Assembly: GCA_020060385.1 (NCBI GenBank)
Contig: JAGVAH010000148.1
Coordinates: 1 to 42,638, forward strand
Length of the DNA: 42,638 nucleotides
Source of the DNA: Syntrophobacterales bacterium
GTDB taxonomy: Bacteria; Desulfobacterota; Desulfobaccia; Desulfobaccales; 0-14-0-80-60-11
Direction: 5' to 3'
A program made the position numbers and the translations under genes. How positions within the stretch are numbered: position 1 is the first letter of the stretch; each line of letters opens with the position of its first letter. Positions 7,269 through 20,898 of this stretch are shown one piece after another. Below the pieces are notes generated by a model. The model was not told the origin of the DNA and did not search any database. It worked only from the letters and a program-made list of their open reading frames with translations.

Positions 7269-10200
7269 TCAATGGAGAGGTTCTTGATATTCGGAGGAGT
7301 CCAGAACCTCCCTGACTTTCTGCACCAGGCCCAGCAGCCGGAAGGGCTTGGCAATAAAGTTGACATGGGCGTCGAGAACCCCGTGATGGACGATGGCGTC
7401 TTCCGTGTAGCCCGACATATAAAGCACTTTCATCTCGGGATGCAGGGAAGACAAACGTTGGGCCAAAGCGCTGCCGCTGATCTGGGGCATCACCACATCG
7501 GTCACCAGTAAGTGGATGGGGCCTTTCTCCCTCTCACAAATCAGCAGGGCCTCCCCGCCGTGGGCGGCTTCCAGCACTGAAAACCCGAACTTGCGCAAGG
7601 CCGTGGACACCAAATCCCGGAGCGCGTCATCATCTTCCACCAGGAGGATGGTTTCCTCCCCTCCCAGGGTGGTGGGGGGGGCTGCCTTGGGTTTGGGCTC
7701 CGGGACGGCTTCTTCCACCCGGGGGAGATAGACTTTGAAAGTCGCGCCTTTGCCGGGTGCGCTATCAACCCAAATATTGCCGCCACTCTGTTGGACAATG
7801 CCGTAAACGGTGGCCAGGCCCAGTCCGGTGCCCTTGCCGCTTTCCTTGGTGGTGAAAAAGGGCTCAAAAATATGGGACATGGTCTCGGCATCCATGCCCA
7901 CGCCAGTATCACTTATCGCCAGCATCACATAGGGGCCGGGGGCAACCCCCACCCGGCTCCGGGTATAAGCCTGGTCCAAATCAACATTGGCGGTGGCGAT
8001 GGTCAGGCTGCCGCCGTGGGGCATGGCATCCCGGGCGTTCACCGCCAGGTTCATGATGATTTGCTCGATCTGCCCGGGGTCGGCCTTGACCGCCCCCAGC
8101 TTCTGGTCGATGCTGGTCACCAGGTCAATATCTTCGCCGATCAGCCGGCGCATCATCTTGTCCATGTCCAGCACCACTTCGTTGAGATTGATCAACTGGG
8201 GTTGCAGGATCTGCTTGCGGCTGAAGGCTAACAGCTGATTGGTCAGTGAGGCTCCCCGGCTGGCAGCCTTGGCGATCTCGTTGATATAGGCGGAGAAGGG
8301 GTCTTCCTTCCGGAGGTCCATCATCATTATCTCACCGTAGCCCATGATGGCGGTGAGAAGGTTGTTAAAATCGTGAGCCAGGCCCCCGGCCAGGATGCCC
8401 ACCGCCTCCATTCTTTGGGCTTTGATCAGTTGGTCTGCCAGCTCCTGGCGCTCGGTGATATCGAAGAATACCCCGCTGATATAATCGACTTTACCGGCAT
8501 CATCCCGAATGATCCGGTTTCTGGCCTGTATCCAGCGGACCTCTCCCCTTTTTTTGCGGATGCGATGCTCGGTGACATAGGAGCCGTCGCCTTTGAGGGC
8601 CTCTCTAAAAAGTCTTTTGGCCTGATCCAGGTCTTCCGGGAAGATCAGGTCACGCCAGGTTTTCCGGCGGGTATCGAAATCCTCCTTGGCATAACCGGTT
8701 ATGTCTTCTATCTTCCGGTCAAAGCAATCCAGGCTCCAATCCGTATACCCTTTGTAAACCACCGCCGGGATCTGATCCACCAACTGGCGGTATTTTAATT
8801 CGCTCTGCCGCAGCGCCTCCTCCGCCGTCTTGCGCTTGGTGATGTCGTGGCTCACCACCGCGGCGTAAGCCACCGTGCCGTCTTCACTAAAATATGGATT
8901 GTAGGAGACATGATAGCACCCCCGACCCCGCTGCCCGAAGTCGAACCAGCCTTCGAATTCCATCATTTGGCCGACAAAACAGCGGTCGAGATAGCCCTTG
9001 ATGACAGTCCCGAAGGTGTCCGTTCCCCAAACATCGGCCACGCTGGTGCCCACCACCTCCTGCCGGGTCTTGCCGTGGGCCTGGCAATAAGCGGCGTTGG
9101 CCGCCTCATAGATATAATTGCGGTCGATCAAGGTCATGCAATCGGTGGCGGTGTTGGCAATGAATTCATATTTAAGTAAAGTTTCTTCCGCCTGTTTGCG
9201 CCCGGTAATGTCAAAGAAAACGCCACTGATGGAATCAAACTTGCCGGCCCCATCGTAAAAAATTTGGCCCATGGCCTGCACCCAGGCAATCCCGCCATCC
9301 TTTTTCCTTATGCGATATTCTCTTTCATAAGTCCTGGCGCAGTCTTTAATGGCCTCTTGAGATTGGCGTTTGACCTTCGTTAAATCATCTGCATGGATCA
9401 CCTCATCCCATTTTATTCTGCGGGCATCAAATTCTTCCTTTCCATAGCCGGTGAGTTCCTCAATCTTGTTATCAAAGAAATCCACGCTCCAATCCGCGTA
9501 GCCTTTAAAAACCACCGCCGGGATCTGATTCACCAGCAGCCGGTATTTCTCTTCACTTTTCCGCAGCCCTTCCTCTGCCTGCTTACGTCCGGTCATGTCT
9601 ATGCCCAGGCCCGTTAGACAGAGTTTGCCTCCCACCGTTATGCGCCTGCCGGTAAAAAAGTAAGGCGTCTTCCCGCCATCTTTTGAAACCAGCTCGGCTT
9701 CGGCAGTATTCTCTCCTTTTACAAAAGCCTCCCTGATGGCCTGGTCAATGAGGATCTTGTCCTCCCCTGCAAATAAGTCTAACGGGCTAAGTTGAGCGAA
9801 CTCCTCTCTGGCATACCCGGAGACCTGTTCGAAGTTCCGGTTCCAGCGCAAGAACCGGCCTTGTTCGTCAAACAAATAAAAAACCCCGGGCAGGCTGTCA
9901 ATGATGCCATCAGAGAAGACCTTCTCCTTCAGTAGACTTTCCTCCGCCCGTCTGCGTTCCGTGATGTCCAAGGCTGTAAAAGTGACGCCCGCGGCAAGGT
10001 CACCCGCAACGATGGGGGTGGAGCTAAGGAGTACCTGAATTATGGACCCGTCTTTGCGCCGCCAACGGGTCTCCACCGTGCCCGTGCCTTTTTCCATAAT
10101 TTGCCGGTACTTCTCCCGGCCGACAAAATCAAAGTCTTCCTGGGTGGGGTACAACATCCTGGCCGATTGTCCCAGCAATTCCGGGACAGAGTAGCCGGTC

Positions 10201-13200
10201 ATTTCCGACAAACGGTCGTTGACTTCCCGTATCACCCGATCCGCCACCACCCCTATACCCGTAGGGGCCGCCAAAAAGATGCTACTCAGCTTTGCTTCCC
10301 GCGTGCGCAGCTCTTCCTCGGCCTGTTTGTGGGGAGTAATATCAAAGGTGACCCCGCTTATATGGTCAATTTTACCCTCAGGATCGAAAATGATCTGCCC
10401 CCGGCACTGGACCCAGCGAATCTCCCCGTTTTTAGTGCGAATGCGGTGCTCCCGCACAAAGGCGCCGTCTGCTTTTAGAGCCTCAATGAAGATATTCTTT
10501 GCATAATCCAGGTCTTCCGGCAGGATCAAATCGGACCATTTAAGCCGACGGGAGTCGAAGTCATCCTTGCTATAGCCGGTAAGCATCTCGATCTTGTCAT
10601 CAAAGAAATCGACGCTCCAATCCCGGTATCCTTCAAAGACCACCGCGGGCAGCTGATTCACCAGCAGCCGGTATTTCTTTTCGCTCTGGCGCAAGGCTTC
10701 CTCGTGGCGGCGTCGTTCCGTCAGGTCCCGGAAAATGCCGCAAACCAGTTGTTTGCCTCTCACCTCAATGGCGCTGGCGCTGATTTCCACCGGGATGCGG
10801 CGGCCCGAGGCGTCCACCACATAAATATCTTCAGTGATAATCCCCCCCATCTCACTGTGGGCCCGGAAAATATCCCGGTATCTTAAGACTTCTTCCGGCG
10901 GATGTATTTGACTCTGGTGCAGGCCAATGATTTTTTCCCGGGGCAGGCCCAGTAATTCCTGGGCCTGGGTATTGGCATCAATAATCACCCCGGTGTCCAC
11001 CTCCGCAATAAAGATGGCGTCATTGGCAGCTTCCATCAATCGCCGGTATCTTTCTTCGCTTTCCTTCAGGGCCTCCTCCGCCCGCTTGCGGTCGGTGATG
11101 TCCTTGGCCAGGGCCAGACGGGCCCGCCGGCCATCAAAGGCAATCTCATGGGAGATGATCTCGACGTTGATGATTTCCCCGGATTTCTTCACATGCCGCC
11201 ATTCCCCCGAGTAGCTTAGACCCGGGGTCTCCTCCCTAAGTTCCTTCACTCTCTCCAGAAAGCGGGGCAGTTCTGCGGGAGGCCGGATATCCTTGATGGT
11301 CTTGGCCAGAAATTCTTCCAGGCTGTAGCCATATAAGTCAATTGCCGCCCGGTTGACTTTGAGGAAACTCAGGCTGTCCAGGTCATAGACCCACATGGGC
11401 TGGGGGTTGCCTTCAAAAAGCAAGCGGTATTTGGCCTCCGACTCTCGCAGGGCCTCCCTTGCCTGGACGCGCGCGGTGACATCCCGGAAACTCCAGACCC
11501 GGCCCACGATGGTCTGGCCGACCCGTTGAGGTTGAGAATAGCGTTCAAATACTCTGCCATCCTTAAATATCAACAGATCGTAGCTCTCTGCCTCCGGTTG
11601 GCCATATAACTCTCGCACCTTGCTGAGAAAACCTTCAGGATCGGTCAATTGCTCCAGGACAAAGGCCAGGGCCTGGTCATCATCCCGGGTCTCCAGAATT
11701 GATTGAGGAATACGCCACATTTGGGCAAATTTCTGATTATAGGCGACGATTTTCCCGGACCGGTCAATCACCAGGAGGCCGTCGGCCGTGGACTCCAAGG
11801 TGGCCTGCAGCAGGGAGATGGTATGTTCCAGCCGGTCCGCGGCCTGCTTGCGTTCCGTAATATCCGCATTCAGGGCCAGGATACCGGTGACGTTGCCCCG
11901 GGTATCATACAGAGAAGAGGTATAGATGCTGATATCAATGGGGGTTCCATCTTTTTTGTGGCGACGCAGTTCCAGTCCTCTCAAGGGTTCCCCAGCCATA
12001 GCCCGCTGTAGATTTTCCCGGAACTCATCCCGCTTCTCCCCCGGGACAATGGGCAGAACGCGACCTACAGCCTCTTCCTCAGTCCAGCCAAAGGTGCTGG
12101 TGGAAGCCGGGTTCCACATCAACACCTTTCCTTCCGGATCCAGGACGAAGATACTTAGCGGGGAGGCCTGAATTATGGCTTGCAGCTTTTGGTGCGCCTC
12201 CCGCAGGGCCTCCTCCACCTGCTTGCGCTCAGTAATATCGATATGGGTGCCGCTCATCCGCAGGGGACGACCTTTAAGGTCACGCTCCACAATCCGGCCG
12301 CGGTCGAGTATCCACTTATACTGCTTGTCCTTGGTCAACATCCGGCACTCGACCTCATGGATCGGGGTCCGGCCTTCCAGGTGATCCTGGAGGGACTTCT
12401 GGGCCGCGGCCCAGTCGTCCGAATGAATGAGATTTAACCATTGCTCCACGTTGGCATCGATCTCCTGGAGAGTGTAGCCCAACATCTCCGCCCAGAGCTC
12501 GCCACGCTTGACTTCACCCGTTTCCAAATCCCAGTCCCAGAAACCCTGTTGGCTGCCCTCCAGGACCAGATTCAGGCGTTCTTCGCTCTGGCGCAACTCC
12601 TCTTCCGCCCGCTGACGATCGGTGATGTCATTCATCAATGCCAGAACATGAACTACCTTATCTGTGGATATCAGAATAGAAGTGGAGATGTTGACAATTC
12701 GCTTTTCTCCATCCGCCCGGGTAATTTCCCAGGGCTCGCTGCGCAGGTTGTCCCCTTGCCGCATCCTCGCCATGCGCTCCTGGGCCCTGGCCTGCAGTTC
12801 TCGGTCCGGGTACATTGTCTGGTACCAGCCCAAACGGTTTATTTCCTCCAGTGTATACCCGGTGATCTCGGTCATTTGATCATTCCAGAGGGTAAACCTG
12901 ACGTAGGGATAGTCGGCCGTCTCATGGCAGACACAAAGCCCCTCAGCCGCGTTATCAATAACCGCCGACCTGAAAGAACTTTCCTCTTTGAGTGCTTCTT
13001 CGGAGCGTTTACGGTCAGTGATGTCGGTGGCAATATGGATGATCCCTTTAACATTGTCGTGTTCATCTAAAATCGGCGTGCAGGAGACTAAAAAGACCCC
13101 GCCCAGGGCCTCCATCTCCATTTCCACAGTTTCTACACTGCCGGAGGCCAGTAATGTTTCCATGGGACAGCCTGTGGGGGGATGATCCCCACCATGGAAG

Positions 13201-13835
13201 ACTTCGTAACATTTCCTGCCGATGATTTCTTTTTCAGAGGCGCCTATGGCGCTTACCGTCGCCCGATTCGCGGCTATGATGGTGTGGTTGGTATCGAGGA
13301 TGATGGCGGCATGGCCGATGGCTTGGAAGATCTCTTCCCATTCTCTGCGGCTCTGCTTGAGGTCTCTTTCGGTTTGCACCCTCGGGGTGACATCCTCCAC
13401 CGTGGCTACCACCTGCTCCACTTGTCCTCCTGCGTCAAGGATGGGGGCCGCGTTAACGGTTAATAAAATACGCTGCCCATCGGCACGCTCGACGGCATGT
13501 TGGACGCCATGAACCGGTTGGCTGGTGTCCATGACCCGACGGAAAGGCAATTGATCGTGGGGAAATGGATTCCCCTCGTAATCTGTTATTCGCCACCGGG
13601 GATCATTATAGGTGAGACCGGTAATCTGGTCCTGGGCCAGACCTAATACCCGGGTCGCTTCCAGGTTGGCCGTAAGGATGGCTCCCTCTCGGTCCAGCAC
13701 CACGATACCTGCCGGACTGGTCTCCATAACCCGGGCTAACAAAGCGGAACCTTGACTTAACGCCCCCAGTCTCTGCCGCCGCAACTCTTGCAGTTCTGCC
13801 AAGAGTTGCATTTTGGTCTTGTCTGTATCCTTCAT
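7269..13835 (-). CDS. Giant soluble hybrid histidine kinase with fourteen PAS domains
   Basis: A 2188-residue sensor kinase with no transmembrane helix or signal peptide, so it should sense cytoplasmic signals. I count fourteen PAS/PAC units, each ending in a DITxRKxAEE-like helix, at roughly 36-150, 165-275, 288-407, 417-537, 547-662, 673-787, 801-914, 928-1040, 1053-1168, 1180-1293, 1305-1416, 1430-1544, 1555-1666 and 1680-1795. Then come a HisKA domain with phospho-acceptor H1821 (LAHDFNN), an ATPase domain (N box [25 protein letters not shown]), and a C-terminal receiver with phospho-acceptor D2113 (TDVVMP) and KPF. Units 9, 12 and 14 are close copies sharing QxPAVVxxGYxDWS. Unit 2 carries two cysteines (KCYEVF, GCP). 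The partner and signal are unknown. AGGGG precedes the ATG. Confidence 0.92.
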
Positions 13836-14166: not shown

Positions 14167-14721
14167 TCAGGCGTCCAGGGTCCGCCAGCCAAAGCTCTCC
14201 AGGTATTCCCGCAGTCTGGCTAGCTGCACCTGAAAGGTTTCCTCTTTGAGGGGCGGGCAGTTTTCCCAGGAGGTCTCCCCCTCCCGCAGGGCCGCGGCGT
14301 AAGCCATGCAGGTGGCGTAGCCGCAGACCCGGCAATTGGTCTTAGGCAGGAGCTTCAGGATCTCCATCACCTTCAGGCTCGCCTGGCCGGTGTAGCGGGG
14401 GGCAATATTCTCCCGGCGGGCATAAATCTCGTTTACCTGGTTTTTGATCCACTCCACCAGGGCCCGGGCCTCGGCAATATCCCGGCACCCCCGGACCGCG
14501 ATTTGCCGGGGCTGCAAAGTGATCCATTTACCCGGGGCCATTTTCAGCAACAGGACGTGGTTTAGGGCGTCGTAATCCCAGCCCCCCAATTCGCTGTTGA
14601 GGAAAGGCAGGGCGGGAGAGATGTCCTCCTGCAGATCGGCAATTGCATGGAGCACCTCCTTGGTGGAGTCGCATTTGGGCCGGAAAATCTCCAGATGTTT
14701 AATGGTCTCCAGCAGCATCAT
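14167..14721 (-). CDS. 4Fe-4S cluster protein with CxxCGxxxC domain
   Basis: A 184-residue soluble protein. Its C-terminal third has LLPKTNCRVCGYATCMAYA (C130, C133, C138) and a fourth ligand in ENCPPL (C155). This is the pattern of the small 4Fe-4S domain in the acetyl-CoA synthase corrinoid protein and related reductases (Pfam FeS family). The N-terminal ~115 residues match no family I can name. It is the last gene of the arsenic/thiol island, and GGGAGG stands directly ahead of its ATG. An electron-transfer role beside the small thioredoxin is likely from position, but its partner is not evident. Confidence 0.7.
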   Translation of the reverse strand: MMLLETIKHLEIFRPKCDSTKEVLHAIADLQEDISPALPFLNSELGGWDYDALNHVLLLKMAPGKWITLQPRQIAVRGCRDIAEARALVEWIKNQVNEIYARRENIAPRYTGQASLKVMEILKLLPKTNCRVCGYATCMAYAAALREGETSWENCPPLKEETFQVQLARLREYLESFGWRTLDA

Positions 14722-14764: not shown

Positions 14765-14998
14765 TTAGGCGATTAGTTTCTTGATCTCTTCCACGCTGGG
14801 CACCTGGCCGGAGACCTTTACTTCGCCGTCCACCACCAGCGCCGGGGTGATGAACACCCCGAAGGCCATAATCTCCTGCAGTCCGGTCACTTTCTCCAGG
14901 GTGTATTCGCCCCCGAGACCTTGGGCCGCGGCCTCCGTGCGTTTGGCCATCTCCTCGCATTTGGGGCAACCCGGCCCCAGGACTTGCAACTTTTTCAT
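14765..14998 (-). CDS. Minimal thioredoxin-like protein (MTH895/TM0996 type)
   Basis: A 77-residue thioredoxin-fold protein with the active site GPGCPKC (C11, C14) right after the first strand, the cis-proline region FITPALVVDGEV, and a final helix SVEEIKKLI. Such mini-thioredoxins are common next to COG0701 permeases and ArsM genes in anaerobes, where they probably act as thiol reductants or metal(loid) carriers. I prefer the ATG at 14998 to the GTG nine bases upstream because GGAGG is eight bases from it. It lies between the HMA selenoprotein candidate and the Fe-S protein gene. Confidence 0.85.
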   Translation of the reverse strand: MKKLQVLGPGCPKCEEMAKRTEAAAQGLGGEYTLEKVTGLQEIMAFGVFITPALVVDGEVKVSGQVPSVEEIKKLIA

Positions 14999-15057
14999 GA
15001 TAACCACCTCCCCAAAGATAAGAATCAGGGGGTCCTTATGAATTTTCCTGAGATATG

Positions 15058-15312
15058 TTACTGGATCAATGCCGGAAGGTATTCCTGGCCCATCTGTCTT
15101 CCCGCGTTGTAAACTGCGGCGAAGATGGCCGCCACCTCCACCATGATGGATTCAAAACTCACGGAGAAATAATCCTGTTCCTGATTATAGGAAACTGACA
15201 TCACTCCCGGCAATCGCAGCAGCTCCGCGCGCACGGCGTCGGGGCAGCCCATTCAGGTGAATCCTCCTTGCTGCAGCATCCCTTTAACGCGCATCTTAAT
15301 GGCCGTGATCAC
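15058..15312 (-). CDS. HMA-like metal-binding protein, candidate selenoprotein (in-frame UGA at 15253-15255)
   Basis: The plain reading frame opens at an ATG at 15252, directly after a TGA. The same frame continues upstream without another stop to a GTG at 15312, which has AGGAGG (15319-15324) six bases before it, while the internal ATG has no ribosome site. Read through, the 84-residue protein contains VKGML, then GGFTUMGCPDAV, with selenocysteine at residue 20 in a UxxC motif where HMA/MerP-type proteins have CxxC. Typical HMA features follow: LPGVMSVSY, a beta strand with SVSFES, then a helix. The C-terminus, AGRQMGQEYLPALIQ, is unlike MerP. A short CCG/CGG hairpin with a six-base loop lies about 17-28 bases after the UGA, a weak SECIS candidate. 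A nonsense mutation is the alternative, but a second UGA gene in this window (mvhD) supports selenocysteine use. Confidence 0.72.
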
Positions 15313-15416
15313 CTTATTCCTCCTGCACCTGAGAACGGTTTCTGGCGGGTAAGGCAAGGAATCGGCGGACAGTGCCAACCCACCTTAACCTTTCCATGCT
15401 CCACTGTTTATCTTTA

Positions 15417-15797
15417 TCAACCCCCAAACTGGGCCAATTTTTCAGCTAAAGGCTGCCCGGCCAACTCCCCTACCGCGCTCCAGAGCAGGTTCCCCTGGTC
15501 ATCCAGAAACAGGAGCGCGGGCAGGGTGAAAAGGTGATATTTCTTGATATATTCCTTGGCTTGGTTCTTATTCACGGCATAATCCAGGCGCTGCAGCAGC
15601 CCCGGCCTGGCCTTGGCGAAGACCTGCTGGACCAACTCCTCCCCCGCCCGGCAGCGTTCCAGGGTGCAGTCACAGGCCTTGCTGGTGGTGACCAAAACCA
15701 CCCGGGCCAGTGGTGGAGCTTTGGCCGCTACGGCCCCTATGAATAGCATGCCTGTCAGGACCGAGATAATCAGAGTGGCAACTTTTCCTCGCGACAT
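15417..15797 (-). CDS. Exported thioredoxin-like thiol protein
   Basis: Of 126 residues, the first ~26 form a signal peptide (VATLIISVLTGMLFIGAVAAKA), so it should act outside the cytoplasm. The mature part begins like a thioredoxin strand (ARVVLVTTS) and has cysteines in ACDCTLERC (C42, C44, C49). The YHLFTLPALLFLDDQGN segment is the usual cis-proline region, and the C-terminus is short. CxC plus C is not the classic CxxC site, so it may bind metal or form an unusual disulfide. I chose the ATG at 15797 because it gives a clean signal peptide. A start at 15833 has a better ribosome site but a poor n-region and overlaps the upstream gene. Confidence 0.65.
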   Translation of the reverse strand: MSRGKVATLIISVLTGMLFIGAVAAKAPPLARVVLVTTSKACDCTLERCRAGEELVQQVFAKARPGLLQRLDYAVNKNQAKEYIKKYHLFTLPALLFLDDQGNLLWSAVGELAGQPLAEKLAQFGG

Positions 15798-15810
15798 TAA
15801 TTTCACGCAT

Positions 15811-16320
15811 TCAGATGGTAGTAGCAATGGCATTGGCTTCCAGAAGCCATTTTTTCAAGGCCTCCCGGGTGGGGCTCTGGCCCACGATCTTCACGGCCCC
15901 GTTGATGAGCAACGCGGGCATCCCCATAATGCCGGTCCGGGCGATCTCCTTAATATCAGTCACGTGCTCCACGTCCGCGGGCAGGCTCAACTCCGAGAGA
16001 ACGGTGATCACCATCTGCGTCAGCGCGGTGCAGGAGGCGCAGCCGGGCCCCAGGATTTTGATGCTGAGAGCCCCCTTTTCTTCTGCCACTTCCTCCCCCA
16101 TGGCCTTCTTGAATTCCCGGAGCAGGGCTTTTTTGTAATCCGGCTCCGCGGCCCCGGGAATGTAATTCTTCTCTCGCAACCTGGCCAGCAGGGCCTGGGC
16201 GATCTCCTCCTCCGGCCGCCCTTTAAGGGCCTGCGCCTCCTCCAGGGCCGCGTCCAGGCCGGTGAGGCCCACCTTCAGGCCCCCACGGATTTGAATCTGG
16301 GTGATCTCCGCCACCAACAT
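15811..16320 (-). CDS. Thioredoxin-fold protein with N-terminal extension, permease-associated
   Basis: A 169-residue cytoplasmic protein. The C-terminal ~80 residues form a mini-thioredoxin with GPGCASC (C94, C97), GIMGMPALLINGAV as cis-proline region and a last helix TREALKKWLLE. The N-terminal ~85 residues are charged and helical (KGRPEEEIAQALLARLRE) and I cannot name them. It begins six bases after the permease stop, so a direct partnership with that permease is likely, perhaps delivering a thiol-bound metal(loid) or reducing its CxC motif. This arrangement (permease plus thioredoxin) is frequent in bacteria and archaea. Confidence 0.8.
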   Translation of the reverse strand: MLVAEITQIQIRGGLKVGLTGLDAALEEAQALKGRPEEEIAQALLARLREKNYIPGAAEPDYKKALLREFKKAMGEEVAEEKGALSIKILGPGCASCTALTQMVITVLSELSLPADVEHVTDIKEIARTGIMGMPALLINGAVKIVGQSPTREALKKWLLEANAIATTI

Positions 16321-16326
16321 GCCTCC

Positions 16327-17406
16327 TTAAAGAATGGCGTTGAACAAAAACCCCACGATCATAATCCCCAGGGCCACCACGCCGATAAAGACCGCGATCA
16401 GTCTAGGCTTCAGGACCTTGCGCAGGATGATGGTTTCCGGCAGACTGATGGCGATGACGCTCATCATGAAGGCCAACACCGTGCCCAGGGCCGCGCCTTT
16501 CCCCAGAAGGGCCTGGACCACGGGGATGACGCCCGCGGCATTGGCATAGATGGGCACGCCGATGATCACCGCCAGGGGCACCGACCACCAGGCCTGGCTG
16601 CCCATGATGGCAGCCATCATCCCTTCCGGCACGTAGCCGTGGATGGCCGCGCCCACGGCGATGCCGGCCACCACATAGATCCAGACCTTGCCCACGATGT
16701 CTTTCACCGCCTGCCATGCATAATCTATGCGTCCCGGCCAGGTCAGACCCTGGGAGACCACCTGGTTTCTGGCCGTCCTGATTTCATAGACCCAGTCCTC
16801 CACCTGCCGCTCCATGTTCAGGCGGCCGATGATCCAGCCGGTGGCCATGGCGATGACCAGGCCGGTGGCCATATAGATCAAGGCCACCCGCCAGCCGAAA
16901 AGTCCCAGGAGCAGCACCAGGGCCACTTCGTTGACCATGGGGGAGGAAATGAGAAAGGCAAAGGTGACGCCGATGGGAATGCCCGCCTCCACGAAGCCGA
17001 TGAACAGGGGCACCGCGGAGCAGGAACAGAAGGGGGTGGCCACCCCCAGGAGCGCGGCCAGGACGTTGCCGGCCATCTCCCTTTTCCCCGCCAGGATGTC
17101 CCGGGTGCGCTCGGGAGTGAAAAAGGAGCGGATAATCCCCACCCCAAAGACCACCAGGGTGAGGAGCATCAGGACCTTGGGCGCGTCGTACAGGAAGAAG
17201 GCCACGGCCTGGCCCAGATGGCTGCCCCGGGCCAGCCCCAGCAGGTCGTAGGTCACCCAGGTGGAAAAGCCCTGCAACTGCCAATAGACGGGCCACCAGA
17301 TGAGGAACCCCAGGCCCAGCAGGATCAGCCTCTTCCTTGGCTTATCAAGAAAACTCGGGACTGCCGCGGTCTGGCAATCCGACGGCAAACGCTCATCCAT
17401 GATCAA
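16327..17406 (-). CDS. COG0701 (DUF318, ArsP-like) permease
   Basis: A 359-residue inner-membrane permease with about eight to ten helices. The signature ATPFCSCSAVPLF (C127, C129) is the CxC motif of the COG0701/ArsP family, repeated structurally in the second half as GVPIYANAAGVIPV. ArsP members export trivalent organoarsenicals; others move different metals, so the substrate here is inferred from the adjacent arsM. Its start overlaps the arsM stop by four bases (ATGA), showing translational coupling, and a thioredoxin-like gene follows six bases later. Confidence 0.85.
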   Translation of the reverse strand: MIMDERLPSDCQTAAVPSFLDKPRKRLILLGLGFLIWWPVYWQLQGFSTWVTYDLLGLARGSHLGQAVAFFLYDAPKVLMLLTLVVFGVGIIRSFFTPERTRDILAGKREMAGNVLAALLGVATPFCSCSAVPLFIGFVEAGIPIGVTFAFLISSPMVNEVALVLLLGLFGWRVALIYMATGLVIAMATGWIIGRLNMERQVEDWVYEIRTARNQVVSQGLTWPGRIDYAWQAVKDIVGKVWIYVVAGIAVGAAIHGYVPEGMMAAIMGSQAWWSVPLAVIIGVPIYANAAGVIPVVQALLGKGAALGTVLAFMMSVIAISLPETIILRKVLKPRLIAVFIGVVALGIMIVGFLFNAIL

Positions 17407-18161
17407 CTCCCTTTCACCGCGCGCACGTTGACGCTGGTGATCTTACCCTTGAGCCGGGGGTCAATCTCCTGGCTCTCATACGGACGCTGGGAAACAATGG
17501 CCACTTCCTCAAATCCCGCATCCCGGATGGTCCGGAGATAGTCTTCTTTATCCATGGCCCCGGCCAGGCAATCGGCCCAGGCCACAAAACTCTTGCGGAC
17601 ATCATCAGGTATTTCTCCCTCAGTCACCAGGTCGCTGATGAGGATCCGGCCCCCGGGTTTGAGCACCCGGTAAGCCTCCCGGAAGCTGGCCAGTTTGTCC
17701 CGGGTCAGATTGATCACGCAATTGCTGATGATCACGTCCACGGTAGCCGCAGCCACGGGCAGTTGCTCGATCTCCCCCAGGCGGAAGTCCACGTTGCTGA
17801 AGCCGTGTTCCCGGGCCAGGGCCATACCCTTGGCCACCATGTCCGCGGTCATATCCACGCCGATGACCCGGCCCTGCTTTCCGACCCTTTTCGCCGCCAG
17901 GAAAACGTCGATGCCTGCGCCTGCGCCCAGGTCCAAGACCGTCTCCCCTTCCCGGAGTTCGGCCAGGGAAGTGGGGTTGCCGCAGCCCACCCCCAGGATG
18001 GCCCGTTCGGGGACGCTGGCCAAATCCTCCGGGGTGTAGCCCACCGCCAGGCATTGGTCCCCGGGGGTGGGGCCGCAGGTGGGGCAACAGAAGGTCTCCT
18101 CCCCCCGGGCGATCTTGCCGTAGCGGTCCTTGATGAACTGGCTGATTTTCTCATCATCCAT
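17403..18161 (-). CDS. arsM: Arsenite S-adenosylmethionine methyltransferase
   Basis: Transfers methyl groups from SAM to trivalent arsenic. Of 252 residues, the SAM motif VLDLGAGAGIDV is at 75-86. The cysteines expected to bind As(III) are at GVGCGNP (C60), ISNCVINL (C148) and WADCLAGAM (C198), together with an N-terminal cluster FCCPTCG (C25, C26, C29) and C37. The proline-rich GYTPEDLASVPERAILGVG segment is characteristic of ArsM. The protein lacks the long C-terminal extension of algal forms, as most prokaryotic ArsM do. It overlaps the permease gene by four bases, and ccdA and acr3 lie upstream. The assignment is strong; whether it makes mono- or dimethyl arsenic cannot be told. Confidence 0.93.
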   Translation of the reverse strand: MDDEKISQFIKDRYGKIARGEETFCCPTCGPTPGDQCLAVGYTPEDLASVPERAILGVGCGNPTSLAELREGETVLDLGAGAGIDVFLAAKRVGKQGRVIGVDMTADMVAKGMALAREHGFSNVDFRLGEIEQLPVAAATVDVIISNCVINLTRDKLASFREAYRVLKPGGRILISDLVTEGEIPDDVRKSFVAWADCLAGAMDKEDYLRTIRDAGFEEVAIVSQRPYESQEIDPRLKGKITSVNVRAVKGS

Positions 18162-18208: not shown

Positions 18209-18904
18209 CTACCAGCTTCTTATCCCTTGATAAAAGATATAAACTCCGGCCAGGAAGACCAAGCCCCCGGCCCCCTGCTGCATGATGGTGCCGAACTTTG
18301 CCCCCTTGGACTGCAGGAAGCTTTCGATTATGCCGGTAAAGGTGCCGGCCAAGATGACCAGAGCGCCACGCCCAATGGCATAGGCGAACAGGAGAGTGCT
18401 GCCGTAAACCACCTCTTGCTTGACAGCCGCCAGAGTCAGAATGACCGCCAATTCCGGGGTGGCGCACGGAGAAAGTACGATCCCATAAAGCAATCCAAGG
18501 ATCAGCGATCCCACCAGACCGGTGCGCTGCGGCAAGAATTTCTGTGACAGCCCTCCCAGTTTAAGATTGATCACCCCTGACAATTGCAGGCCCATGGCCA
18601 TGAGGATGACCGCTACCAAAACTTGCCATTGAAAGCCTACCTGTCCGAACATGGTGCCCATCAGGGCTGCCAACGCTCCGAGAGCAGACATAGCGATAGC
18701 CAGCCCCACGACGAAAATTACAGAGTAGATGAAAGCCTGTTTCTTGCTGCCCTCTGAATAGCCGCCCACAAAACCGATAATTAGGGGAATGCTGGCTAGG
18801 CTGCACGGGCCGGCGGTGGCAATCAAGCCGCCCAAAAAAGCCGCGCCGTATCCCAGGATGGGCCGGTTCAGGATAACCTGCCCCAAAGCTTCGCTCCAGT
18901 CCAT
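18209..18904 (-). CDS. ccdA: CcdA/DsbD-type transmembrane thiol transporter
   Basis: A 231-residue protein with six hydrophobic helices that carries reducing equivalents from cytoplasmic thioredoxin across the membrane. The two redox cysteines of the family sit in the helix starts ATAGPCSLASIP (C34) and VLSPCATPEL (C147), each next to a proline. Ten bases separate it from the upstream exported thioredoxin gene, and AAGGAG stands before its ATG. The pairing implies a dedicated CcdA-thioredoxin relay for extracytoplasmic thiols, presumably serving the proteins of this arsenic island. Confidence 0.92.
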   Translation of the reverse strand: MDWSEALGQVILNRPILGYGAAFLGGLIATAGPCSLASIPLIIGFVGGYSEGSKKQAFIYSVIFVVGLAIAMSALGALAALMGTMFGQVGFQWQVLVAVILMAMGLQLSGVINLKLGGLSQKFLPQRTGLVGSLILGLLYGIVLSPCATPELAVILTLAAVKQEVVYGSTLLFAYAIGRGALVILAGTFTGIIESFLQSKGAKFGTIMQQGAGGLVFLAGVYIFYQGIRSW

Positions 18905-18914
18905 GGGCGCTCCT

Positions 18915-19304
18915 TTATTTCTTGATAAATTTCAGGTCCCGGAGTTTCTTGAGGACTTCCTCCCGGGAGAGGGGGCCGATATGGCGCTCCACTTCCTTGC
19001 CGGAGGCGTCCAGGAAGACCTGGGTGGGAATCATGAGGATCTGGTATTGCTTAAACAAGTCTTTCTCCTTATCCAAATAGACCAGGCGCACTTCCAATTG
19101 GTCGCCGTATTGACCCTTTAACTCCCCCATGATCTTCTCCATCTCTTTGCAGGAGAAGCAATACCCGGCCCCGAACTCATAGAGAGCGGGGCGACCCGGG
19201 ACGGGGGCGGAAGTTTGAGCCTGCCCCGGCCAGGGGAGGGAGATCATCACGGCCAGAAGGAACAGGCCGAAAAGCTTTGCCACTGCCTGCCAATGAAGTC
19301 GCAT
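18915..19304 (-). CDS. Exported thioredoxin-family protein, partner of CcdA
   Basis: Of 129 residues, the first ~30 form a signal peptide (LFGLFLLAVMISLPWPGQAQ). The mature protein has the active site GAGYCFSCKEMEK (C49, C52) and the cis-proline segment ILMIPTQVFLDASGKEV. It resembles the C-terminal thioredoxin domain of DsbD and the SoxW/TlpA-like partners of CcdA. It is followed ten bases later by ccdA, so the two together rebuild a split DsbD. AAGGAG is about thirteen bases from the ATG, a little far. Confidence 0.87.
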   Translation of the reverse strand: MRLHWQAVAKLFGLFLLAVMISLPWPGQAQTSAPVPGRPALYEFGAGYCFSCKEMEKIMGELKGQYGDQLEVRLVYLDKEKDLFKQYQILMIPTQVFLDASGKEVERHIGPLSREEVLKKLRDLKFIKK

Positions 19305-19359: not shown

Positions 19360-20460
19360 TTACTGCTCACTGCTCAATTTGCTGCCAGCCAGCCCTGCAG
19401 CCTCCACTGCTTCGGGAGCGAAGTATTTATCCCGGAATTTCAGGGCCACGTTCACCAGACTGATGAGCACCGGCACCTCCACCAGAGGGCCGATGACCGC
19501 CGCGAAGGCCTGGCCGGACTGGATGCCGAAGACGGCCACGGCCACGGCAATGGCCAACTCAAAGTTATTGCTGGCCGCGGTGAAGGACAGGGTGGCGGAG
19601 ATGCGGTAGCCCGCCCCCGCCTTGGCGGACATGTAAAACGTGATGAAGAACATCAACAAAAAGTAGATGACCAGGGGGACGGCGATGCGCACCACGTCCA
19701 GGGGCAGGGCCACGATGTATTCACCCTTCAGGGAGAACATCACCACGATGGTGAAGAGCAGGGCGATGAGGGTGATGGGGCTGATCTTGGGCATGAACTT
19801 TTCCTCATACCAGTTAACCCCTTTACGATTCACCAGGAAAAAGCGGGTGACCATGCCCCCGAAGAAGGGAATGCCCAGGTAGATGAGGACGCTCTGGGCC
19901 ACTTCCCAGATGGTGACCTTCACTTCCAGGCCGGAGGCGATCCCCAGCCAGGCAGGGAGCAGGGTCACGAAAATATAGGCATAGATGGAAAAGAAGAGCA
20001 TCTGGAAGATGGAGTTGAAGGCCACCAGGCCGGCGCAGTATTCCGTGTCCCCCCGGGCCAGGTCGTTCCAGACGATGACCATGGCGATGCAGCGGGCCAG
20101 GCCGATGATGATCAGGCCCACCATGTACTCCGGATAGCCCTTAAGAAAGGCGATGGCCAGCAGAAACATGAGGATGGGGCCGATCACCCAGTTCTGCACC
20201 AGGGACAGGGCCAGGACCTTGAAATTTTTGAAGACCCGGGGCAGTTCCTCATAGCGCACCTTGGCCAAAGGCGGGTACATCATGAGGATGAGGCCCACGG
20301 CGATGGGGATGGAGGTGGTGCCCACCTGGAAGTAGGTCAATAGCTTGGTGAAACCAGGAATAAAATAGCCCAGGCCCACCCCCGCGGCCATGGTCAGGAA
20401 GATCCACAGGGTCAGAAAACGCTCTACCTTGGAGAGCTTTTTAGTAACCGTGGCACCCAT
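19360..20460 (-). CDS. acr3: Arsenite efflux transporter, Acr3 family
   Basis: A 366-residue inner-membrane protein with ten predicted helices that exports arsenite using the proton-motive force. The diagnostic segment [19 protein letters not shown] holds the conserved Cys of helix 4 (C124). [11 protein letters not shown] and the C-terminal [17 protein letters not shown] helix also fit Acr3, which is unrelated to ArsB of E. coli. It lies 69 bases downstream of arsR, with its own operator-like repeat in the gap (20482-20500). AGAGGAAGG precedes the ATG. Confidence 0.93.
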
Positions 20461-20529: not shown

Positions 20530-20898
20530 TCAGGCTGTCAGTTCCCCGGGGGTTGGACAGCACTGCATTTTGAGGCGCAGGCACTCCGCCAATTTCTCCC
20601 TTAAGACCCGGGCTTCCGGCTTGGCGGCCAGCATCTCGCCCAGGAGACTGACTAACTGCTCCCCAGGGGTGCCCGGGGACACGGCCAAGCGGTAATACAT
20701 CCACAATCCCTCCCGGCGGTCGGTCACCCAACCCAGGTTATAGAGATAGCGCAGGTGCCGGGAGGCCTTGGACTGGGTAATGCCCAGGACCATCATGATA
20801 TCGCAGACGCAGAGTTCCTCCTGCCCCATCAGGAGCCAGAGGATCCGCAGGCGGGTCTCATCCGCCAGGGCTTTGAAGAAACGGGCTTGCTGCTTCAT
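20530..20898 (-). CDS. arsR: ArsR-family arsenite-responsive repressor
   Basis: A 122-residue winged-helix repressor of the arsenic operon. The metalloid site is ELCVCDIM (C30, C32) in the first DNA-binding helix region, as in E. coli ArsR, and the recognition helix is TQSKASRHLRYLYNLGWV. Three further cysteines near the C-terminus (C106, C113, C114) could add a third ligand, as reported for some ArsR members with displaced sites. The start codon lies only eight bases after the -10 box and has no ribosome site, so translation may be leaderless. It is the first gene of the island. Confidence 0.92.
   Translation of the reverse strand: MKQQARFFKALADETRLRILWLLMGQEELCVCDIMMVLGITQSKASRHLRYLYNLGWVTDRREGLWMYYRLAVSPGTPGEQLVSLLGEMLAAKPEARVLREKLAECLRLKMQCCPTPGELTA

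Follow-up and report, generated by a model that had tools for sequence, protein, structure and literature searches.

The window analysed here, a stretch of 42,638 nucleotides from a Syntrophobacterales bacterium (contig JAGVAH010000148.1), contains an arsenic island in which one short reading frame (15058..15312, minus strand) is interrupted by a UGA, and the locus raises the question of whether that codon is read as selenocysteine (Sec) and what role an HMA-fold selenoprotein would have among arsenic genes. The answer that we favor, with a probability of roughly 0.65 for the statement as a whole, is that the product is a small HMA-fold selenoprotein of the cytosol with SECIS-directed Sec, and that it would act as a soft-metal(loid) carrier reduced by thioredoxins. 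The analysis was sequence-based and drew on the frame, the family, the invariant TGA, the Sec machinery, a fold prediction and the neighboring genes, from which we infer Sec insertion, metal binding, partner and substrate of the product.

Reading frame and conservation of the UGA

The gene extends from a GTG start at 15312 to a TAA stop at 15060-15058 (84 codons), and the in-frame UGA is its codon 20 (15253..15255, minus strand). The frame continues past the UGA to this GTG, as a preliminary description of the DNA had noted, and a Shine-Dalgarno AGGAGG (15318..15323, minus strand) precedes the start with a spacer of 5 nt. Decoding the UGA as Sec gives the product (M)ITAIKMRVKGMLQQGGFT-U-MGCPDAVRAELLRLPGVMSVSYNQEQDYFSVSFESIMVEVAAIFAAVYNAGRQMGQEYLPALIQ. 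Translation around the UGA, VITAIKMRVKGMLQQGGFT-U-MGCPDAV..., places the codon at the first position of the HMA metal-binding pair (U-M-G-C), again in agreement with the earlier reading.

Homologues were sampled by a protein search of 59 related genomes and by profile searches of the order plus 395 genomes of the phylum. These searches yielded 23 homologous loci in the phylum, with profile scores of 86-140 bits. Either Cys or U had been expected at the codon in homologues; TGA was found in 23/23 loci and a Cys form in none of them. In two loci, both from one genome (G053), the second ligand is also TGA, giving UxxU. The next-best profile matches, which have no TGA, scored 35 bits or less and were HMA domains, most of them within large proteins (P-type ATPases, for example). 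When 84,980 species genomes were scanned with two peptide patterns, only 14 relatives were recovered, all matching known TGA loci, although distant Cys forms may escape such a scan because the patterns are exact. Every member examined had a start codon with a Shine-Dalgarno-like sequence 18-22 codons 5' of the UGA, and the family alignment showed an excess of third-codon-position substitutions on both sides of the UGA, a pattern that was lost 5' of the start.

These data bear directly on the alternative of genuine termination at the UGA, with a 64-residue product translated from the internal ATG (15252-15250). The preliminary description had dismissed this ATG for want of a ribosome site, which was wrong: in the window genome an AAGGAGG (15263..15269, minus strand) ends 10 nt 5' of it, and this is the point in favor of an internal start. 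The same bases double as codons for the conserved QGG loop, and the motif is probably not a ribosome site in use. Of the 23 loci, 11 have ATG directly after the UGA, 4 have GTG and the other 8 have ATC, ATA, ACC, GTC, GCC or AGC; with a potential start in only 15 of the 23, an internal start cannot account for the family, the internal-start model was rejected, and the mistake over the ribosome site is harmless to the conclusion. Homologues that start at the internal ATG had been named as evidence that could overturn the selenoprotein reading, and this comparison left it standing. Termination at the UGA is made highly improbable also by the 18 codons 5' of it, which are conserved at the protein level with V, G and F invariant, by the loss of beta1 and one metal ligand that the shorter product would suffer, and by the fact that the codon is TGA throughout the family and never TAA or TAG.

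Selenocysteine machinery and the candidate SECIS region

Absence of the Sec machinery had likewise been named as evidence against a selenoprotein, yet the host genome contains selA (597 bits), selB (364 bits), selD (377 bits) and a tRNA-Sec with anticodon tca. The selD gene contains an in-frame UGA of its own, in UxxK (UASK). The tRNA-Sec was matched twice, in an identical 98-nt stretch at the ends of two contigs (G000:C30 and C134; L129 and L130); we rejected these matches as evidence for two tRNA-Sec genes, because they probably represent an assembly break at one locus and only possibly two gene copies. Within the window, mvhD (35312..~35762, minus strand; start approximate) also contains an in-frame UGA, in the sequence FCCHY-U-AYSAADLAG, and this codon, which the preliminary description had pointed out, lies at the CxxU of a known selenoprotein (PMC13188914, Table 1).

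Several neighboring genes use UGA as their ordinary stop, so UGA is not globally reassigned, and a reassigned genetic code was rejected on these grounds. The broader alternative, in which a residue other than Sec is inserted at the UGA (through near-cognate readthrough as Cys or Trp, or through a changed code), would also be expected to conserve the frame; however, the full Sec system, the Sec-type UGAs in selD and mvhD, the presence of UGA rather than any sense codon at every copy of the site, and the existence of UxxU forms together leave it scarcely credible.

A candidate SECIS region (15226..15249, minus strand) was delineated by reduced synonymous variation in codons +2 to +9 after the UGA. 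For each alignment column, the fraction made up by the most frequent synonymous codon was compared with draws from the codon usage of the same genes. Columns +2, +4, +5, +7, +8 and +9 were constrained (p <= 0.006, with p values that ignore relatedness), as illustrated by Arg CGC in 18/18 and Ala GCC in 18/19 sequences, while columns 5' of the UGA and most of those past +10 were unconstrained, the exceptions including +18, +35 and +56. These other columns serve as an internal control because relatedness is identical for all columns. The constrained stretch agrees with the expected position of a bacterial SECIS. A short hairpin with G-U in its apical loop, ~18 nt after the UGA, can be traced in codons +2 to +9; by pair counts in the family it is nearly invariant and without covariation, and an alternative register shifted by one base pairs only in three divergent copies. 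RNAalifold predicted no consensus structure for the family, and the MFE of the downstream region was about equal to that of codon-shuffled controls (mean z ~ -0.6 at best). Given the nearly invariant hairpin, the RNAalifold result and the about equally stable shuffles, the case for a SECIS is one of position and constraint only. Rfam SECIS_1, which describes the eukaryotic element, matched nowhere.

Taken on these sequence data, the UGA of the gene is very probably decoded as Sec. The UxxC selenoprotein first suggested for this locus is strongly supported by the unbroken conservation of TGA, the complete machinery, the constrained synonymous sites and the failure of the internal start, and the genes appear to form an uncatalogued selenoprotein family. 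Selenoprotein genes whose UGA stands near the start, as it does here, are readily mis-annotated or overlooked.

Predicted fold and known relatives

AlphaFold2, run with a 22-row alignment, returned a model with a pLDDT of 90.8 and the HMA order beta-alpha-beta-beta-alpha-beta (E2-9, H22-31, E36-42, E47-52, H59-72, E78-82), in which the ligands U19 and C22 lie between beta1 (2-9) and alpha1 (22-31). The top PDB folds for the model were HMA7 (3dxs) and MerP (1osd, rmsd 1.2). A selenolate metal ligand would fit this predicted HMA fold. Sequence and model suggest that the loop from the conserved G-M to the first ligand is ~6 residues longer than in G-M-T-C. Profile scores were marginal or low: the window copy scored 24.3 bits against PF00403 (HMA; gathering score 24.8), with 28.3 for another family member (L014), and the window protein matched no NCBIfam model (June 2026) above its cut-off. 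For NF041115 (cut-off 95 bits), four family members scored 24.9 (the window protein), 23.7, 23.5 and 17.7, and for TIGR02052 (MerP) the window protein scored 25.7 bits against a cut-off of 92.55.

Among the 119 families of prokaryotic selenoproteins inventoried in 2026 (PMC13188914) are UxxU metal-binding proteins (NF041115, labelled 'putative mercuric reductase' in Table 1) and UxxC P-type ATPases; as far as the open literature goes, a stand-alone cytosolic UxxC HMA protein is absent from the list. NF041115 resembles the window family in its HMA fold and in having Sec at metal-ligand positions. The members of this type that were examined in the phylum, however, appear to carry secretion signals and have the usual GMTCxxC loop, whereas the N-terminus of the window protein has no apparent signal sequence and the protein carries UxxC in a longer GMxxxGGFxUxGCPDA loop. 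The UxxC P-type ATPases share the motif but are large membrane pumps, in contrast to an 84-residue soluble protein. Among HMA metallochaperones, MerP, NmerA and CopZ have the predicted fold and ligand position in common with the window protein; they differ in having Cys at both ligands and a shorter loop, and the window protein falls below all of their family cut-offs. The arsenite metallochaperone ArsD embodies the same concept, a small carrier in ars clusters, but the window protein matched no ArsD model. The ArsD fold also differs from the HMA fold.

Genomic context and proposed role

The island lies on the minus strand throughout. An MTH895/ArsE-family thioredoxin-like protein (14765..15007; TIGR00412, 100.5 bits) is encoded 50 bp downstream of the UGA gene, followed by an Fe-S cluster domain protein (14167..14721; PF04060). 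On the other side are a thioredoxin-like protein with a CDC...C motif (15417..15833; CDCTLERC, no confident Pfam or NCBIfam match), a protein with a C-terminal ArsE-type thioredoxin domain (15811..16320; TIGR00412, 83.9 bits), an ArsP_1-family permease (16327..17406; PF03773, 247 bits), the arsenite methyltransferase ArsM (17403..18161; NF008823, 308 bits, over the cut-off), a CcdA/DsbD-like membrane protein (18209..18904), a thioredoxin with an N-terminal hydrophobic segment (18915..19304), the ACR3 arsenite efflux transporter (19360..20460; TIGR00832, 453.7 bits) and an ArsR/SmtB regulator (20530..20898). Against SaoE of the Sao selenoprotein system, which it also resembles, the permease scored 127.7 bits (cut-off 325). 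Elsewhere in the window, 7269-13835 encodes a 2188-residue protein that by eye resembles a sensor histidine kinase with multiple PAS domains and a receiver domain at the C-terminus.

Across the family, an ars cluster surrounds the gene in 9 of the 23 loci, where the gene typically follows arsM directly and is accompanied by acr3, ccdA and thioredoxins, with an ArsP-type permease in some of the nine. Two loci, both in genome G053, are merR operons: in one (L102) the order is merR, an ArsE-like thioredoxin, a merT-like gene, a MerP-like gene (UPAU) and the family member, with merT and MerP assigned by eye, and in the other (L103) it is merR, thioredoxin and family member. Thioredoxins like the 14765..15007 protein also accompany the mer-linked copies. 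The remaining 12 loci have no recognized ars or mer genes nearby; four follow ridA, two lie near an xdhC-like gene and six are of other kinds, one short contig included. Members cluster largely by gene context in the family tree.

Under the favored reading, the UGA would be decoded by the host SelA/B/C/D, steered by a short RNA element right after the codon, and Sec would be the first ligand of a U-x-x-C pair, set in a loop between beta1 and alpha1 that is shorter in ordinary HMA domains. Selenolate and thiolate would together capture a soft metal(loid), As(III) in the case of the ars island and ions resembling Hg(II) where the copies are mer-linked, and hand it to a neighboring enzyme or exporter (ArsM, ArsP or ACR3 in the window), while the neighboring ArsE-type thioredoxins would keep the pair reduced. 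Once Sec is granted, a carrier role is probable. The identity of the metal is less certain because more than half of the loci (12/23) are without recognized ars or mer genes, and even within the ars island of the window we put the odds that arsenic is the specific ligand at about even. An HMA site with two ligands is a better match for the linear geometry of Cu(I) or Hg(II) than for As(III) with its three-coordinate geometry. The earlier proposal of a selenolate ligand for arsenic handling therefore stands in part: the selenolate fits the HMA fold and the ars linkage recurs, but the two merR operons, and the absence of recognized metal genes at the other loci, leave a soft-metal(loid) role better supported than an arsenic-specific one.

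The main competing explanation is that the HMA scaffold serves redox catalysis, the protein being a thioredoxin-fed U-x-x-C selenenyl-sulfide reductant or oxidoreductase whose substrates might be, for example, arsenic species, selenium or oxidized thiols. UxxC is a common redox motif among selenoproteins (PMC13188914), both merR loci, like the ars island, have thioredoxin-like neighbors, and the copies after ridA or near xdhC are not beside recognized metal genes. Nevertheless, the fold and the position of the motif match metal-binding HMA domains and MerP, no catalytic residue is evident besides U and C, and the mer-linked copies suggest a metal, so that we regard an enzymatic role as unlikely relative to a soft-metal(loid) carrier.

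A more far-reaching form of the carrier reading, which we advance only tentatively and at somewhat below even odds, is that these proteins are obligate-Sec metallochaperones of the HMA type, cytosolic and lacking a Cys counterpart, whose selenolate is the essential metal(loid) ligand and which were recruited to arsenic and mercury operons. To our knowledge, Sec is almost always discussed as a redox residue; if the obligate-Sec reading is true, Sec is used here for metal trafficking and not for redox chemistry. With Sec in every copy (UxxC or UxxU), this stand-alone HMA domain is a simple system in which to study Sec as a ligand for soft metals, and it points to a possible selenium-dependent step in arsenic and mercury detoxification by anaerobes.

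Two secreted MerP-like proteins were also observed in the phylum. The UPAU protein encoded immediately 5' of the family member in the first merR operon (L102:1500-1780, G053), a relative of the NF041115 type, has two in-frame TGA codons, and a second protein (L105:3020-3430, G062) carries GMTCSGU (CxxU) and is another apparent HMA selenoprotein.
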